A stretch of DNA of 64,000 bases. Origin: Haloferax mucosum ATCC BAA-1512. GTDB lineage: Archaea; Halobacteriota; Halobacteria; Halobacteriales; Haloferacaceae. Below are positions 49,969-56,632 of the stretch, in pieces. The position numbers and the translations under genes were made by a program. Each line of letters begins with the position of its first letter. Positions within the stretch are counted from its first letter, which is position 1. Below the pieces are notes generated by a model, which was given only the letters and a program-made list of their open reading frames with translations, did no database searches and was not told where the DNA came from. The stretch lies in the NCBI RefSeq assembly GCF_000337815.1, contig NZ_AOLN01000006.1:248001-312000 (forward strand), in the 5' to 3' direction.

Positions 49969-50772
49969 TCAGCGGTTCCGTTCGAAGACGGTCGTTTCGA
50001 GGTTCACCTCGATGATGTTCGCCGCTTGCATCACGAGTTCGGGAATCTCTGTGTGGAATCGCTCGCCGGAGAGCCTGCTCGTCGGGGCCGTCACGCTGAC
50101 CGCGCCGGAGACGTCGCCGTCAACGCCGCGAATCGGCGCGCCGATAGACCGCATCCCGCGGAGTTCTTCTTCGTCGTTGATGGCGTAGCCCTGCTCGCGT
50201 ATCTGTTCGAGTTCCCGAAACAGGTGCTCGGGGTCGGTGATGGTGTTTTCCGTCTGCTCGGCGAGTCCCTGTTCGTCGATGATATCGCGGACGCGCGACT
50301 CGTTGAAGTGACTGAGCATCGCTTTCCCGGTCGATGTGCAGTGGAGGTACTGGGGTGCCTCGCGCATGCGGAGGTGGTAGTCCATCGCAATGGCGTTGTC
50401 ACCGCGACTCTCGTACATGGTCACCTCCTTGCCACGATAGGAGACAGTCAGGTGGACGTACTCGCTCGTCTGTTCGGCGAGTTTGTCCACTTCCAGTTGC
50501 CCCGCTCGATAGAGGTCCGTCTCGTTGCGGACGGTTTCGCCCATCGTGACGAATCGAAATCCGAGTCGGTAGTGACCGTCCGACTTCACGACGAATCCCT
50601 CGTCTTCGAGCGTTGCGAGGTACGTGTGGACCGTCCCCTTCGACGCGTCGAGTTCGTCACAGAGGTCGCCGAACGTCGGGTCGGACCGCCGCTGAATCGT
50701 GGCCAATATCTCGCTCGCCGTCTGCACGGATTTGATGCGGCGGGGGGCGTCCGCTTGCCGACTATCGTCCAT
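49969..50772 (-). CDS. IclR-family transcriptional regulator
   Basis: 267 residues. An N-terminal winged HTH (about 10-75) has VQTASEILATIQRRSDPTFG and the recognition helix in DELDASKGTVHTYLATLEDE. The IclR effector-binding GAF-like domain (about 85-265) includes HCTSTGKAMLSHFNES. IclR proteins usually respond to an organic acid and control nearby catabolic genes; candidates are the downstream aminotransferase or the divergent NhaC operon. A TATA-like TGGTATATC lies about 30 bp upstream. Confidence 0.9.
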   Translation of the reverse strand: MDDSRQADAPRRIKSVQTASEILATIQRRSDPTFGDLCDELDASKGTVHTYLATLEDEGFVVKSDGHYRLGFRFVTMGETVRNETDLYRAGQLEVDKLAEQTSEYVHLTVSYRGKEVTMYESRGDNAIAMDYHLRMREAPQYLHCTSTGKAMLSHFNESRVRDIIDEQGLAEQTENTITDPEHLFRELEQIREQGYAINDEEELRGMRSIGAPIRGVDGDVSGAVSVTAPTSRLSGERFHTEIPELVMQAANIIEVNLETTVFERNR

Positions 50773-50910
50773 ACGTGTCGCTTCTCACCGGACTCGTAAT
50801 AGTTCTGGTATATCAAACAGTGAACGGCCAGCGTGTTTTATCAGTCCGCTTTCGGCCAGTACGCGTTTGGAATTCACAAACATAACGGGACAGAATGTTC
50901 GAATACAAAA

Positions 50911-50918
50911 TTTATATA
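50911..50918 (+). promoter_or_regulatory. TATA box upstream of the nhaC leader ORF
   Basis: TTTATATA, 26-33 bp before the ATG at 50944 but about 200 bp before the nhaC ATG. It implies that transcription begins at or near the short ORF. Confidence 0.6.
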
Positions 50919-50943
50919 GGACATTCATGATTGTTTGAGTGGT

Positions 50944-51126
50944 ATGGGTTGCCAACCACACGACCGCCGTCGGCACGCCGCCGCGGGGGACTGGTTGCGA
51001 GCGTTCGCGTATCGGCTTTCAATCTCTCTCAGTAGGACCGCCCCGACGGCGGTGGCCGGCGAGTTCGACCGTTCACCGGTGGTTGCTTCCCGACAGTACG
51101 CTTCGGAGGTGTCTCGATGGGATTAG
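50944..51126 (+). CDS. Possible 60-residue leader ORF overlapping nhaC
   Basis: 60 codons (MGCQPHDRRRHAAAGDWLRA...), ending 10 bp inside nhaC in a different frame. The TATA box at 50911-50918 fits a leaderless start exactly here, so ribosomes loading at the mRNA's 5' end would meet this frame first. The peptide is basic and polar, unlike typical acidic haloarchaeal proteins, so its value may be in translational coupling rather than as a protein. It could also be an ordinary untranslated leader. Confidence 0.4.
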   Translation: MGCQPHDRRRHAAAGDWLRAFAYRLSISLSRTAPTAVAGEFDRSPVVASRQYASEVSRWD

Positions 51127-52586
51127 CGTTCGAGCCGCGGCTGTACGAGGACATCGACGCCGAAAAACGACCGTCGCTCGCCGAGGCGCTCGTCCCCGTC
51201 TTCGGAATGCTCGTCTTCCTCGGTGTGGGTATCGCCGGCTACGGACTGGACCCGCAGTTCCCGCTCTTTTGGGGCATCACGTTCACGGGTCTCTTCAGTC
51301 GCTACTGGCTCGACATCTCGTGGGAGGAACTCTACAACGGCATCACGGACAGTCTCCACATGGGGATTCAGGTCATCCTCATCATGTTCGTCGTCTACGC
51401 GCTCATCGCCACATGGGTCGCCGCGGGGACGATTCCGAGTCTGATGTACTACGGGTTGGAACTGTTGACGCCGAAGGTTTTCCTGCCCGTGACGGCGGTC
51501 CTCGCGGCTATCGTCACGTTCGCCATCGGGTCGTCGTGGACGGCCGCCGGAACCCTCGGCGTCTCGTTTATCGGTATCGGTGCTGGGCTTGGTATCCCCG
51601 CGCCGATGACCGCGGGAGCCATCCTGTCGGGCGCGTACATGGGCGACAAGCAGTCGCCGCTTTCGGACACGACGAACCTCGCGGCGGCCGTGACGAACAC
51701 CGACCTGTTCGACCACGTCAACGCGATGCGAGACAGTTCGCTCGTCGCGTTCGTCATCGCGGTCGCACTGTACGCCATCCTCGGCTTCCAGGCGTCCGGT
51801 GACATCCCGGTGGGCCGTATCGCAGAGATTCAAGGCGCACTCGTCGGGTCGTACGAGATTTCAGCCCTCACGTTCGTCCCGCTTTTGGTCACGTTCGGAC
51901 TCGCCATTTACGGCGTCCCCGCGCTACCGACGCTCGGCGCGGGCGTGTTCGCGGGCGCGGCGACGGCAGTGACGATGCAGGGAACGAACTTCGCCGACGT
52001 GTGGACGATTGCCCAGTCCGGAACGAGTCCCGCGACCGGGATGGAACTCGTCAACGGTCTGCTGTCCAACGGCGGCATGATTGGCGGCGCGTGGGTCGTC
52101 ACCATCGCCATCGCCGCGCTCTCGCTCGGTGGCATGCTCGAACGGGCCGGTATTCTCGCCGTCCTCGCACACCACCTCGGTCGGCTCAGCCGCGGCGTCG
52201 CCAGTCTGACCGGCGTCACCGCCGTCTCCGCGGTGTCGATGAACGTTCTCGCCGCAGAGCAGTATATCAGCATCGTCGTCCCCGGAATCACGCTTCGGAA
52301 CCTCTACGAAGAACAGGGGCTCCAAAGCGAGAACCTCTCGCGGGCCATCGAATCCGCCGGAACGACGACGAGCGCGCTCATCCCGTGGAACAGCGGGGCG
52401 CTCTTTATGGCCGGGACGCTCGGGGTCGGCACCCTCGAATACGCTCCGTACTACTTCTTCGGCATCCTCTCTCCAGTGGTCTTACTGCTGATGGGTCTCA
52501 CCGGCTGGCAAATCACGTACAAAGCGGGCGCGGCCCCCGCCGGTGCCGACGCGCACTCCGGGTCGGCATCGACGACGGACGACTGA
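51117..52586 (+). CDS. nhaC: NhaC-family Na+/H+ antiporter
   Basis: 489 residues, about eleven or twelve membrane helices. NhaC marks: GIQVILIMFVVYALIATWVA, the central ITFAIGSSWTAAGTLGVSF-like stretch with GSSW, and GAYMGDKQSPLSDTTNLAAA with the charged residues conserved in this family. It exchanges Na+ for H+ at the cell membrane for pH and salt balance; some members exchange organic acids such as malate for lactate. The start follows a possible short leader ORF that overlaps by 10 bp. Confidence 0.92.
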   Translation: MGLAFEPRLYEDIDAEKRPSLAEALVPVFGMLVFLGVGIAGYGLDPQFPLFWGITFTGLFSRYWLDISWEELYNGITDSLHMGIQVILIMFVVYALIATWVAAGTIPSLMYYGLELLTPKVFLPVTAVLAAIVTFAIGSSWTAAGTLGVSFIGIGAGLGIPAPMTAGAILSGAYMGDKQSPLSDTTNLAAAVTNTDLFDHVNAMRDSSLVAFVIAVALYAILGFQASGDIPVGRIAEIQGALVGSYEISALTFVPLLVTFGLAIYGVPALPTLGAGVFAGAATAVTMQGTNFADVWTIAQSGTSPATGMELVNGLLSNGGMIGGAWVVTIAIAALSLGGMLERAGILAVLAHHLGRLSRGVASLTGVTAVSAVSMNVLAAEQYISIVVPGITLRNLYEEQGLQSENLSRAIESAGTTTSALIPWNSGALFMAGTLGVGTLEYAPYYFFGILSPVVLLLMGLTGWQITYKAGAAPAGADAHSGSASTTDD

Positions 52587-52598
52587 AAGCGACGTGAG

Positions 52599-53318
52599 TC
52601 AGGGGTCGAGCAGTTTCGCCTCGGCCTTTCGGAGATGTTCGAGGACCGTGGTCTTCGAGATATCCAACTCATCGGCGAGTTCGCGGGTCGATACCTCGCG
52701 TGGCCAATTATAGTAGCCCCGCTCGCGGGCCAGTTCGAACACCTCGCGCTGTCGCGGTGAGAGCGTTTCGAGTTGGTGAACGTCTCGCGGCCCGCCGCTC
52801 ACCGCACCGATGCGCGCGATTTTGATGTCCGCGTTCGACCGGTCTCTGACCGCGTCAAGCGCCGCTTCGATTTCGCTTCGTGTCCCCGTGTAGCGGACGT
52901 CCCAGTACTCTCGTCCGTCTTCGATTTTCCCCGGCGCACTGTGGACGAAACCCTGTTTTCGTAACTGGGGGAAGATGAGGTCGTCGGGGTCGTATTCGAC
53001 GAACACCTCGCGGGCGACTGCGCCGGGGGCGACGCGCTGTCTCCGCGTGTCGAACTGCGTTTGAATCTCCTCGATTGTACCGACGAGCGGCGACGACCCG
53101 ACCGCCTCTATCAACTGCGTCACCTCCCGATCCGACTCGGCGTAGGCCGTGTACAGCCCGGTGACCGTCGATGACTCGGTCCCGTACGTCGGCGTCTCGT
53201 AGACGGCGTGGGCGATGATGCCTCCGGGCCGGTCGGCAGTCGCCTGAATAGCCCAACAGTTCGGGTGCCAGAGGTCGAGCGTCAAGTGAGTGCCTGTGTC
53301 AGTCATCGACGCGCTCAT
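52599..53318 (-). CDS. HTH_10 (Bat-type) transcriptional regulator
   Basis: 239 residues. About 1-160 is a Bat-associated GAF/HTH-linked sensory domain without cofactor motifs; HTH_10 is at about 180-236 with TLSPRQREVFELARERGYYN and STRELADELDISKTTVLEHL. Starts at 53318 and 53306 are both in frame and I cannot choose. It is convergent with nhaC (13 bp between ends). Targets unknown. Confidence 0.88.
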   Translation of the reverse strand: MSASMTDTGTHLTLDLWHPNCWAIQATADRPGGIIAHAVYETPTYGTESSTVTGLYTAYAESDREVTQLIEAVGSSPLVGTIEEIQTQFDTRRQRVAPGAVAREVFVEYDPDDLIFPQLRKQGFVHSAPGKIEDGREYWDVRYTGTRSEIEAALDAVRDRSNADIKIARIGAVSGGPRDVHQLETLSPRQREVFELARERGYYNWPREVSTRELADELDISKTTVLEHLRKAEAKLLDP

Positions 53319-53438
53319 ACGGCTCTTGTGCGGTGCGTCGTGGTAAGTCTATCACTGTCGGTCGGCGTCGCCGGAAGACGGTGTGAGACGACCTCGCTCC
53401 GAGAGCGCGGCACGACAGTCACCCGGCGGCTGTGGGAC

Positions 53439-53876
53439 TCACTCGCTCGACGCCTCGGGCCGTGGAACGAGGACGACCGGCACCGGCGACAGTCGCGCGA
53501 GTCGGTCCGCCGTGCTCCCGAGAATCGCCTCCGGGAGCGACGTACTGCCGTGACGACCGGCGACGACGAGGCCGGCACCGACCGCTTCGGCGTGGGCGAG
53601 AATCCCGTCGGACGGCGTCTGCGCCCGGCGGACCTCGGTGTCGATAGTCACCGTCGGCCGGTCGCTGGCCGCGACGGACGCGTCCACGAGGTCTCGAATC
53701 GCGGCGTCCAACTCGGCGACGTCCTCCACGTCGAAGCCGAGCCGACCACCCGCGGACTCAACCACGGTTACCACGTGGACGGCGGCGTCGAACGCCGCGG
53801 CAATCGACAGCGCGTGTTCGAGCGCGGCGTTCGACGCGTCGGTTCCGTCGATGGCGACGAGGATGGATTCGTACAT
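53439..53876 (-). CDS. Universal stress protein UspA (single domain)
   Basis: 145 residues, one UspA domain: MYESILVAIDGTDASNAAL at the start and the ATP loop VVAGRHGSTSLPEAILGSTA at the end, intact G-x2-G-x9-G-S layout in a slightly altered form (GRHGSTSLPEAILGST). Soluble and acidic. Gene stands alone with 120 bp to the HTH_10 gene. A stress-related ATP-binding protein; partner unknown. Confidence 0.92.
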   Translation of the reverse strand: MYESILVAIDGTDASNAALEHALSIAAAFDAAVHVVTVVESAGGRLGFDVEDVAELDAAIRDLVDASVAASDRPTVTIDTEVRRAQTPSDGILAHAEAVGAGLVVAGRHGSTSLPEAILGSTADRLARLSPVPVVLVPRPEASSE

Positions 53877-54011
53877 AGTGGGTGACGCCGCGGCGCGGGC
53901 AAAAAGACTCTGTCGGGCATCCGCAGGAGCGAATCACCGCGACTGGCCACATAGCGACTAGTCCACATAGAAGGATGTGAAGACAATTCTCATACATAGT
54001 CTATAGAGAAT

Positions 54012-54019
54012 ATTTATAT
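54012..54019 (+). promoter_or_regulatory. TATA box of the MgtC leader ORF/operon
   Basis: TTTATATT, 31-38 bp before the ATG at 54050 and about 120 bp before the MgtC gene's ATG, so the transcript should include the short upstream ORF. Confidence 0.55.
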
Positions 54020-54049
54020 TGTGGGCGTATAGAGTGCACAGCTAATCAG

Positions 54050-54136
54050 ATGATTCGAAGAACGGAAGTCGGAGCGGTCACCCTCCAAAAGCGAGCGCGA
54101 CCCGGGCGGGAGTTCGCCCGCCGGAGGCGGTACTGA
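54050..54136 (+). CDS. Possible 28-residue leader ORF overlapping the MgtC gene
   Basis: 28 codons (MIRRTEVGAVTLQKRARPGR...) ending in TGA whose last base is the first of the next ATG (TGATG). Very Arg-rich. It begins near the predicted transcription start and contains a GC-rich hairpin (CGGGCGGGAGTTCGCCCG, about 54106-54123). Like the ORF before nhaC it may couple or attenuate translation of the transporter gene. The bacterial mgtC/mgtA leaders are a functional parallel only. Confidence 0.4.
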   Translation: MIRRTEVGAVTLQKRARPGREFARRRRY

Positions 54137-55383
54137 TGCAAATCGATGTGACGGTCCTCCCGATTAGTCCTCGCATCACGCAACTGTTCATCGCGGCGGC
54201 GTTAGGGATGTTTCTCGGTCTCGAACGCGAGTGGTCACAGAAGTCGGCCGGAATCCGAACCTTCGCGCTCACGAGCCTCATCGGGGCGATTTCGACGACA
54301 ATAGACAACAACGTCCTCCTGACGCTCGGAGGCGTGCTCGTCTTACTACAGGCGGTGCTTCTCGGGGCCGATGGACTCCTCGAAGGGGAGTCGCCGCGGA
54401 GTCTCTCGTTGACGACATCGGCGTCGCTGTTCGTCGCTTACAGCGCCGGCGTGATGGTCGCCGCGGATTTCGTCCTCGAAGCGGTCATCCTCGTGATTAT
54501 CTCGTCGGTCCTGTTGGTGTTGCGGCGAGAACTCCACCAGTTCGCGTGGGGACTCTCCAAAGAGGAGGTAAAGAGCGCGGCCGAGTTTGCGATTCTCGCG
54601 TTCGTCATCTACCCGATTCTCCCGTCAGAGCCGGTCGGGCCGTGGGACGCCATCCAACCGCAACTCGTCTGGTTGCTCGTCGTCGCCGTGAGCGGACTCG
54701 GCTTCGTCAACTACGTCATCATGCAACGCTACGGGAGCCGCGGCATCGCAATCACAGGCTTTTTCGGCGGTCTCGTCAACTCGACCGCGGTCATCGGCGA
54801 GTTCGCAGACCGGGCGGAACGCAACCGAGATATCCTCTCGCTTTCGGTCGGGGCGGTGTTGCTCGCGGACGCGGCGATGGCCGTCAGAAACCTGTTTCTC
54901 GTCGGGGTGTTCATCCCCGAGGTCGTTCCGGAAGTCGGAACCCCGCTTGGGATTATCGCCATCGTCGGCGTCGGACTGTCCGTCTATCTCACCGACTGGG
55001 ACACCGAGCTACAGCTCGATTTCGACTCGCCGTTCAGCCTGTCAAACGCGCTCAAGTTCGGTGCGCTCTTCCTCGTGATTCTCGTCGCTTCGGCGGGCGC
55101 ACAGCAGTTCTTCGGTGCGGCAGGGTTGGTGACGACGAGTTTCCTGAGCGGCCTCATTTCGAGCGGTTCGACGACGACGACCGCGGTCACGCTCTACCTC
55201 GCCGGGACGGTGTCCGCCGACACCGCCGCGGCGAGTATTCTCGCCGGAACGAGCGCGAGCATCCTCATCAAAATCGTCCTCGCGGCCAGCATTAACCGCT
55301 CGCTGTTCCGACCCGTTGCGAAAGCGAGCAGCGCGCTCATCGCCGCTGGCATCCTCAGCGGCGCACTCCTAGCCGCGCTCTAA
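54136..55383 (+). CDS. MgtC/SapB family membrane protein with DUF4010
   Basis: 415 residues. The N-terminal MgtC domain (about 1-135) has LGMFLGLEREWSQKSAGIRT, where the Glu-Arg and Gly-Ile-Arg-Thr motifs are the family signature. The remainder (about 140-410) is the DUF4010 membrane domain with several helices and GFFGGLVNSTAVIGEFADRA. MgtC is linked to growth at low Mg2+ and to ATP-synthase control in bacteria; the role of the MgtC-DUF4010 form is unknown. Start overlaps a 28-codon leader ORF. Confidence 0.87.
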   Translation: MQIDVTVLPISPRITQLFIAAALGMFLGLEREWSQKSAGIRTFALTSLIGAISTTIDNNVLLTLGGVLVLLQAVLLGADGLLEGESPRSLSLTTSASLFVAYSAGVMVAADFVLEAVILVIISSVLLVLRRELHQFAWGLSKEEVKSAAEFAILAFVIYPILPSEPVGPWDAIQPQLVWLLVVAVSGLGFVNYVIMQRYGSRGIAITGFFGGLVNSTAVIGEFADRAERNRDILSLSVGAVLLADAAMAVRNLFLVGVFIPEVVPEVGTPLGIIAIVGVGLSVYLTDWDTELQLDFDSPFSLSNALKFGALFLVILVASAGAQQFFGAAGLVTTSFLSGLISSGSTTTTAVTLYLAGTVSADTAAASILAGTSASILIKIVLAASINRSLFRPVAKASSALIAAGILSGALLAAL

Positions 55384-55450
55384 GTGCCCGTAATACATAT
55401 TACTATTTTGAGATATGTTTGAAATATACTACTATATAATCATTCATAAC

Positions 55451-55458
55451 GTTTATAC
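55451..55458 (+). promoter_or_regulatory. TATA box of the phosphonate-type transporter operon
   Basis: GTTTATAC, 29-36 bp before the ATG at 55487, which supports that start over the ATG at 55466. Confidence 0.55.
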
Positions 55459-55486
55459 CGAATGTATGTCTCAATGGAATACACTA

Positions 55487-56632
55487 ATGCCCGAATTCGA
55501 CCACACGAGACGTTCACTACTCGCTAGCGGCGCGGCGGCCATCTCTCTGGGCTTCGCAGGCTGTATCCAGAGCGGTGGCGGCGACAGCGACGGCCAATCC
55601 AACGAGTCTACGACTGGCTCGGACAGTTCGTCCGAGGGAGGCGACGGCGCATCGAGCTTCGACCCGGCGAATCCCGAGTTCCCGCAACCGATGGCGACGC
55701 TCATCAGCGCCGGGTTCGAGACGGGGTCGCTTTCGGACCTCGAAAACATGGAAGAGCGGGAAAAGCCCCGCTACGGGAAGCCAGTCAAGGAGACGCCGTC
55801 GAAAGAAAGCGAACTCCTCGACCCCGACAAACTCGCGTTTGCGATGACGCCGTCCGAGGACCCGGCGGCCTACCGGACGACGATGAAGCCGCTCATGGAC
55901 AACATCGCCAAAGAGACCGGCAAGGAAGTCGAATACTTCCCGCTCCAGTCGTACGCGTCGCAGGTCGAAGCGATGCGCTCCGAGCGACTCCACATCGCCG
56001 GATTCTCTACGGGACCGACGCCGTTCGCCGTGAACCTCGCCGGTGCCGTGCCCTTCTCCCTGCAGGTCTCCGGAGAAGGTGACTTCGGCTACCGCCTCTG
56101 GCTGGCGACGCAGGCCGACAACGACGACATCAACTCGCTTTCGGACCTGCAGGGCAAGCGCGTCGCCCACTCCGAACCGTCGTCGAACTCCGGCAACCAA
56201 GCGCCCCGCGCGCTCTTCGCCAATCAGGGCGTCGTCCCCGGCGACGACTACGAAGTCGCCTACTCTGGCGGTCACGAACAGAGCGTCCTCGGCGTCGCCA
56301 ACGGCGACTACGACGCCGCACCCGTCTGCAGTACATGCGTGACGCGTGTCGCAAACGCCGGGAACCTCGACCCCTCGAACATCAAGGTCGTCTGGGCGAG
56401 CAATCCCTTCCCGACGACGAGCTTTACGTATCGTTACAACCTCACGCCCGAGATTCAGGAGGGTATCCGGGCCGCGTTCACCGACTACGACTACTCCGAC
56501 ACGCAAATCGCAGAGACCTTCGAGGGGCGCGGCAAGTTCACCGAAATCGACTACGCGACCGCTTACGACATCATCCTCCAGATTCAGGAGAACAACGGTG
56601 TCGAGTACCAGACGGACAACCTCGGGGAATAA
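55487..56632 (+). CDS. phnD: PhnD-type phosphate/phosphonate-binding lipoprotein
   Basis: 381 residues from the ATG at 55487 (MPEFDHTRRSLLASGAAAIS). Twin Arg and a lipobox LGFAGC (Cys26) predict Tat export and lipid attachment. After a Ser/Gly linker the PhnD fold starts near 115 (KLAFAMTPSEDPAAYRTTMK) and includes the family stretches KRVAHSEPSSNSGNQAPRAL and GGHEQSVLGVANGDYDAAPV. PhnD proteins bind phosphonate, phosphite or phosphate. It heads a four-gene operon with the ATPase and two permeases; no C-P lyase or phosphonatase gene is present, so phosphate or phosphite is as likely as phosphonate. Confidence 0.92.
   Translation: MPEFDHTRRSLLASGAAAISLGFAGCIQSGGGDSDGQSNESTTGSDSSSEGGDGASSFDPANPEFPQPMATLISAGFETGSLSDLENMEEREKPRYGKPVKETPSKESELLDPDKLAFAMTPSEDPAAYRTTMKPLMDNIAKETGKEVEYFPLQSYASQVEAMRSERLHIAGFSTGPTPFAVNLAGAVPFSLQVSGEGDFGYRLWLATQADNDDINSLSDLQGKRVAHSEPSSNSGNQAPRALFANQGVVPGDDYEVAYSGGHEQSVLGVANGDYDAAPVCSTCVTRVANAGNLDPSNIKVVWASNPFPTTSFTYRYNLTPEIQEGIRAAFTDYDYSDTQIAETFEGRGKFTEIDYATAYDIILQIQENNGVEYQTDNLGE

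Follow-up and report, generated by a model that had tools for sequence, protein, structure and literature searches.

A leader ORF kept in frame and position rather than in sequence: a probable coupling mini-cistron ahead of MgtC/DUF4010 genes in Haloferax and Halorubrum

In mycobacteria, small open reading frames (ORFs) at the very start of leaderless transcripts are coupled to downstream genes through RTGA overlaps (Shell et al. 2015, PMC4633059). The authors of that study propose that the linkage can be selected more than the peptide and that it may increase initiation on the downstream gene. Reinitiation at overlapping gene pairs is also known from Haloferax volcanii, where removal of the Shine-Dalgarno (SD) motif reduced it in six of seven pairs (Huber et al. 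2019, PMC6728339); at 5'-untranslated regions (5'-UTRs) of the same species, the SD motif plays no part in initiation (PMC3986360). Here we describe an element that resembles both systems. It lies in a stretch of 64,000 nt from Haloferax mucosum ATCC BAA-1512 (contig NZ_AOLN01000006.1, positions 248,001 to 312,000 of the forward strand), called the window in this text and numbered from its first nucleotide, and it is a 28-codon mini-ORF that ends on the start codon of a gene for an MgtC/DUF4010 membrane protein. A preliminary description of the window had seen in it a possible archaeal analogue of the magnesium-related leaders of bacterial mgt genes. We think it probable that this leader ORF is a near-leaderless coupling mini-cistron, which would load ribosomes at the end of the mRNA and hand them to the MgtC gene by termination-reinitiation.

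With the mycobacterial coupled ORFs (PMC4633059) the element has in common the stop/start overlap and the precedence of linkage over peptide, and its small ORF is predicted to be near-leaderless. It differs from them in that it belongs to an archaeon, accompanies one gene family across two genera and two paralogues, uses the overlaps TGATG, RTGA and GTGTTGA, and alternates phylogenetically with leaderless and operon states. The overlapping pairs of H. volcanii come from the same genus and show the same stop/start overlap with an SD-like motif in the upstream ORF. However, those were native pairs tested in reporters (PMC6728339), whereas the upstream partner here consists of 9–57 unconserved codons and is described from sequence. 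ORFs of 15–31 codons ahead of normal Haloferax genes have been described in long 5'-UTRs of H. volcanii (Babski et al. 2016, PMC4983044), but these 16 cases lie in UTRs of 150–250 nt, all have a low pI, and the section that presents them does not mention stop/start coupling. The table of that paper lists no MgtC/DUF4010 gene, four of its rows being given merely as 'hypothetical'. Bacterial leader genes have been likened to an 'antenna' by which the structural gene is supplied with ribosomes (Korolev et al. 2016, PMC4833913); unlike the present case, this is a statistical hypothesis for bacteria, with a preferred gap of 10–11 bp and with overlapping leader genes excluded. Coupled leaderless ORFs in mycobacteria, reinitiation in Haloferax and upstream ORFs (uORFs) in H. 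volcanii are already known, and what may be new is a conserved archaeal mini-cistron that extends through a gene family. The literature searched, whose coverage did not extend to the H. volcanii ribosome-profiling papers (Gelsinger 2020; Hadjeras 2023), contained no archaeal report of such a family-wide element, and the term 'uORF' is absent from the accessible text of an H. volcanii translation paper (PMC12482152).

All features of the locus lie on the forward strand. The mini-ORF occupies positions 54050–54136 (28 codons plus TGA; peptide MIRRTEVGAVTLQKRARPGREFARRRRY), and its architecture is common to the Haloferax and Halorubrum-group loci described below. Its TGA (54134–54136) has one A in common with the ATG of the MgtC/DUF4010 gene (54136), which gives TGATG at 54134–54138, a stop/start overlap as in the leaderless coupled ORFs of mycobacteria. 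The gene itself (54136–55383) encodes 415 amino acids that match the Pfam families MgtC (PF02308, 2e-19) and DUF4010 (PF13194, 1.2e-54); with 70.6 bits against a cut-off of 31.4, it belongs to the MgtC family. Within the mini-ORF, 8 nt ahead of the main ATG, we found an SD-like GGAGG (54123–54127), corresponding to the SD-like motif near the overlap in termination-reinitiation pairs. The TATA hexamer TTTATA (54013–54018) stands 37 nt ahead of the mini-ORF ATG, at the end of a conserved promoter block (TCATACATAGTCTATAGAGAATATTTATA, 53990–54018). The genome clusters with Haloferax, and in H. marinum, its closest named relative, the block is near-identical while the leader downstream of it has diverged. 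The anatomy given in the preliminary description, a 28-codon ORF near a predicted transcript start that runs into an MgtC-type gene through TGATG, is thereby confirmed.

The position of the mini-ORF on the transcript was estimated from TATA spacing. For calibration we used 1010 genes with free upstream DNA, taken with a simple purpose-made gene caller from 1.54 Mb of the genome including the window. TATA hexamers were most frequent at a spacing of 30 nt upstream of the start codon (89 cases with exactly this value), which is the leaderless spacing. This peak places the predicted transcription start region at 54043–54049, with a 5' end at about 54043, so that the mini-ORF would begin about 7 nt from the end of the mRNA. 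At a TATA-ATG distance of 37 nt instead of 30, it is near-leaderless by prediction. Before the main start at 54136, no TATA hexamer was found at leaderless spacing (best score −2.1, threshold 4.3).

Taken by itself, the TGATG overlap in the window is unremarkable, because uORFs ending between −9 and +8 of the main start are frequent in this genome, both among those with a positioned TATA (15 of 56) and among the rest (124 of 655). The reality of the leader ORF rests on its conservation in relatives, not on the single sequence. Homologues were collected from the best 80 of 136 relatives, and 94 loci were classified: 79 of the 80 plus 15 further copies, duplicates removed. The rows taken out were L012 (a second copy from the species of L011), L084 (the same gene as L004), and L003 and L098–L110 (second gene pieces or short matches). 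An MgtC match was absent from one of 15 Haloferax genomes. Upstream of the gene, the classifier recorded a mini-ORF in 42 loci, a leaderless arrangement in 38, an operon in seven and something else in the remaining seven. Two loci that it placed as leaderless deserve comment: L033 has a mini-ORF and is counted as such below, and L010 is ambiguous (a 10-codon ORF with GTGA).

A protein tree, in which bootstrap support is incompletely settled, divides the 94 rows into clades of 36 and 58. In the smaller clade (Natrinema, Natrialba, Haladaptatus, Haloarcula, Halobacterium and others) the gene is predicted to be leaderless in all 36 loci, with TATA 28–31 nt before the start. The Haloferax copies form two paralogue clades, and all 16 have an ATG mini-ORF with a TATA-like hexamer 32–37 nt upstream and a stop between −7 and +5 of the main start. 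The Halorubrum group of 32 loci is made up of the 30 with that label and of L009 and L033, whose branches lie among them; L044 and L057 branch apart with L010. An ATG mini-ORF with TATA at 29–33 nt is present in 27 of the 32; in four more (L008, L014, L026, L036) the mini-ORF starts with GTG or the main gene with TTG, which brings the total to 31, and L007 is the only locus that does not fit the plan. Over Haloferax and the Halorubrum group together, 47 of 48 loci thus carry a mini-ORF that stops at the main start. The preliminary description had named a lack of conservation as evidence against a real leader; instead the leader is kept in both genera, with its peptide diverging. Among the relatives, the mini-ORF appears to alternate with either a predicted leaderless main gene (36/36) or an overlapping cistron of the HAD family (seven loci). 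A separate observation concerns one Halorubrum subclade of four loci. Three of them (L014, L026, L036; not L007) retain an Arg-rich mini-ORF with a GTG start ahead of MgtC, despite a long gene close upstream. In L014 about 60 nt separate the end of this gene from the MgtC start, and Pfam gave no match for it; an 'archaeosortase' label for it was dropped for want of Pfam support.

It could be argued that the mini-ORF is a chance ORF in a GC-rich 5'-UTR and that MgtC initiates by itself on a leadered mRNA. Stops are scarce in GC-rich DNA, and a stop close to the main start is found in 19–27% of this genome's uORFs. However, occurrence in 47 of 48 loci contrasts with the controls, in which the detection rule found the arrangement in only one of 36 leaderless-clade loci and, among genes of this genome that lack a leaderless TATA, in 40 of 496. 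We also applied a blind rule that ignores the ORF and takes the best TATA and then the first ATG 26–50 nt further on. It gave an ATG in 31 of the 48 loci and none in 17, and all 31 ORFs ended at a candidate main start; in the 36 leaderless-clade loci no ATG was obtained. The frame points in the same direction. The distance from the ATG to the main start equals 2 modulo 3 in 41 of the 43 ATG mini-ORFs, over 20 distinct lengths that lie between 9 and 57 codons, and 41 of the 43 stop at −2, +1 or +4 relative to the main start. One frame across 20 lengths implies that length has changed in whole codons. Even L002 and L004, which are out of the common frame, end at +5 and −7. Since an open frame is cheap in the GC-rich Halorubrum leaders, we replaced the argument from openness by that from frame and distribution, and in view of the latter we regard a chance origin as very unlikely.

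As described for mycobacteria, the linkage is conserved more than the peptide. Between genera, or between the two Haloferax paralogues, the peptides could not be aligned by eye, and the shortest have only 9 residues (e.g. MEHGRSGVR). A comparison of seven Halorubrum mini-ORFs (21 pairs) gave 134, 102 and 176 differences at codon positions 1, 2 and 3, and of the 294 codons that changed, 90 were synonymous. Over the first 60 codons compared in the main gene, the differences numbered 50, 22 and 200, and 193 of 243 changed codons were synonymous. Any constraint on the Halorubrum peptides would, judging by these counts, be at most weak. The slight third-position excess could nevertheless be taken, along with the stable linkage, a resemblance between the N-termini of several Halorubrum mini-ORFs (M(N/D/S)ATTRS) and an arginine content of 25.5% across the 43 peptides, as a sign of a functional basic, often Arg-rich small protein that is co-expressed with MgtC and acts in trans. 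The N-terminal likeness, however, may equally stem from the initiation context, and arginine makes up only 16% of the residues in the Haloferax mini-ORFs. The Arg-rich character given to the ORF in the preliminary description is not general. With peptides that do not align across genera or paralogues and lengths that go down to 9 codons, a small protein acting in trans seems to us highly improbable.

The mgtL leader combines peptide- or codon-specific stalling with alternative RNA structures. Stalling of this kind and alternative RNA structures are also described for mgtM, mgtP and mgtQ (PMC8092293). A translated leader of the mgtL/mgtP type, in which codon-specific stalling in response to Mg or a metabolite switches RNA structures, would agree with the name of the gene family, with the presence of a leader ORF and with a hairpin in the window copy. 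This GC-rich hairpin within the mini-ORF (54105–54122, with 54105–54110 pairing with 54117–54122) is indeed predicted, as had been claimed, but it is not conserved, and the whole leader of the window shows no excess fold stability (z score +0.51; 134 of 200 shuffles were equally good). Neither a conserved RNA structure nor an attenuator was found among the leaders (mean z −0.12, with one of 42 below −2), and an Rfam scan of positions 50000–56000 gave no match near the gathering score (best E value 2.4, outside the leader). In the 43 mini-ORFs we found no conserved stalling codons or peptide and no proline-rich signature; proline accounts for 8.4% of the residues, and PP occurs in only nine peptides. 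As the mini-ORF ends on the start codon, there would be no room for an attenuator in between. Salmonella likewise has short ORFs beside its MgtC-family gene, of which mgtM and mgtP respond to ATP and charged tRNA-Pro while mgtQ is described as acting by ribosome destabilisation via alternative stem-loops (PMC8092293), and nothing of this kind was seen here. The suggested analogy with the Mg-related leaders of bacterial mgt genes is unsupported by these data, and a sensing leader has, in our estimation, a very small chance of being the right explanation.

Coupling by reinitiation can be related to a genome-wide pattern of the SD motif. As reference for SD matching we used AGGAGGTGATCC, which we take to be the haloarchaeal SD sequence. 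GGAGG lies no more than 18 nt from the start in 70 of 238 operon-internal genes of this genome, in two of 189 leaderless genes and at 28 of 821 other free starts. Among these free starts, an ATG uORF ending at the start was present in 14 of the 28 with GGAGG and in 92 of the 793 without (P = 1e-6). The MgtC and NhaC genes of the window are both among the 28, and the association persists when they are left out (12 of 26, P = 2e-5). Similarly, GGAGG was found in six of 14 genes that combine TATA, uORF and overlap, compared with 22 of 807 others (P = 2e-6; four of 12, P = 3e-4, minus the two window genes). GGAGG is a mark of reinitiation sites in this genome. The association fits what has been reported for H. 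volcanii, where the SD motif is unused at 5'-UTRs (PMC3986360) and aids reinitiation (PMC6728339). In the homologous loci, SD matches of at least 5 nt precede the main start in seven of 16 Haloferax and 19 of 27 Halorubrum-group cases.

The operon state suggests where some of the mini-ORFs may come from. In seven Natrialbaceae loci (L023, L032, L038, L040, L041, L042, L047) a full HAD-family gene overlaps the MgtC gene by ATGA. The two upstream genes that were tested, those of L023 and L038, match the Pfam HAD families Hydrolase_6 (1e-24 and 1e-25) and Hydrolase_like; this is a hint that in Natrialbaceae MgtC/DUF4010 works together with a phosphatase. In the tree, this operon group (support 87/40) is the sister of 30 Halorubrum rows (99/95), among which L045 is the first branch. 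The L045 mini-ORF (57 codons) starts with MNRTTRPFAAAIVDLDDTASRGE and carries AIVDLDDT at the position of the HAD motif DLDxT in the overlapping Natronococcus HAD genes, and global alignments of its N-terminus to six HAD starts were equalled by 1–17 of 3000 shuffles. The mini-ORF of L045 is probably a relic of an upstream HAD-family cistron. Both the motif and the branching of L045 beside the operon group would also be expected if the mini-ORFs were nothing but decaying relics of that cistron with no present role. A functionless relic would lose its frame, however, yet the frame is kept over 20 lengths, and no HAD trace was seen by eye in the Haloferax mini-ORFs; we consider mere decay extremely unlikely.

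For the coupling mini-cistron we envisage the following course. Transcription would begin a few bases before the mini-ORF ATG, and ribosomes would enter at the 5' end in the leaderless or near-leaderless manner that predominates in haloarchaea. After making a short peptide whose sequence is not fixed, they would pause at GGAGG near the end of the mini-ORF, terminate at the TGA and start anew on the ATG of the MgtC/DUF4010 gene that overlaps it. Selection would preserve the reading frame, an ATG close to the 5' end and the overlap of stop and start, and the peptide itself would be dispensable. The Halorubrum mini-ORFs may descend from a HAD-family cistron that stood upstream in an ancestral operon. 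Near-leaderless loading followed by termination and reinitiation would account for the persistence of start, frame and overlap without that of the sequence, whereas Mg2+ sensing accounts for none of these.

Several observations weigh against this explanation. The TATA-ATG distance in Haloferax (32–37 nt) exceeds the leaderless peak of 30, so a short 5'-UTR is likely. In most Halorubrum loci, 50–90% of shuffles end at the start when frame and main start are fixed, and the detection rule can pick among several ATGs and in-frame main starts. It found no fitting ATG mini-ORF in L007, L015 and L030, the last two of which are also members of the 58-row clade; L030 has a 58-codon ORF with GTGA and no TATA at the right distance. 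In L004, from H. marinum, the mini-ORF and the main start are separated by a gap of 4 nt instead of overlapping. As the loci are related by descent, we give no single P value. The SD-like stretches measure only 3–4 nt in nine of 16 Haloferax leaders and are weaker in those of paralogue B, and matches of at least 5 nt also occur in seven of 37 leaderless rows. As for the HAD origin, the local BLAST score of L045 (24.3 bits) exceeds the 95th percentile of shuffles (22.7), but the best shuffle scored higher (25.4), and a Pfam search with its mini-ORF peptide gave no match. Genome-wide, the excess of start overlap among TATA-positioned uORFs is not significant (P = 0.11), and with TATA at the wrong distance (52–62 nt) equally many uORFs overlap the start (10 of 37). 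A genome-wide claim from overlap frequency alone failed these controls and was abandoned; only the SD association survived.

The preliminary description had also reported a second leader before an ion transporter in the window, and this one is likewise present. It is a mini-ORF of 60 codons (50944–51126, forward strand), whose TAG begins 7 nt inside an NhaC-type antiporter gene (51117–52586), and GGAGGTG precedes the ATG of that gene. The leader (region 50911–51126) is near-leaderless by prediction. In the two Haloferax relatives analysed for it, its frame is preserved and its stop overlaps the gene at the same position; there it has 70 codons, and its N-terminus is similar. The combination of TATA, uORF and overlap was further observed in this genome at L183:14500–16740 (amino-acid permease with a Usp domain) and at L140:3137–4594 on the minus strand (OB-fold protein), both with GGAGG, and at L155:10551–11639 (CheB methylesterase; all three assigned by Pfam).

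Upstream of the mini-ORFs we noticed a palindrome-like element at or upstream of the TATA box, of the type TATAG-N2..6-TATAG or CTATA-N2..8-TATAG. It is found in the window at 53990–54010 and in L025, L018, L049 and others, with the forms CTATATAGCAAGCTATAG in Halorubrum and TATAGTCTATAG in H. marinum and Haladaptatus. Searched for in the 260 nt upstream, the element occurs at 20 of 42 mini-ORF loci and in three of 38 leaderless rows, and it lies within 200 nt of three of 1370 genes of the genome; the window copy is one mismatch away from the 14-mer used as query. It is perhaps the operator of a regulator common to several genera.

Most haloarchaeal messages are leaderless, and the question addressed by these findings is how translation starts on those mRNAs that have a 5'-UTR. 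Tentatively, and with rather less confidence than in the single locus, we suggest a haloarchaeal route in which leaderless mini-cistrons of arbitrary sequence start translation inside the 5' leader. They could originate where an operon partner has collapsed but the coupling site and the promoter have survived. If this is true, mini-cistrons would explain the SD motifs in a subset of haloarchaeal 5'-UTRs, although de novo initiation ignores the SD motif. A leader ORF with a drifting sequence but a fixed frame and overlap lends itself naturally to a test, and the genus is genetically tractable. The case is also a warning that a leader ORF ahead of an ion-transport gene need not imply a metal sensor, and it suggests that a gene can outlive its operon partner by retaining a stub of it.
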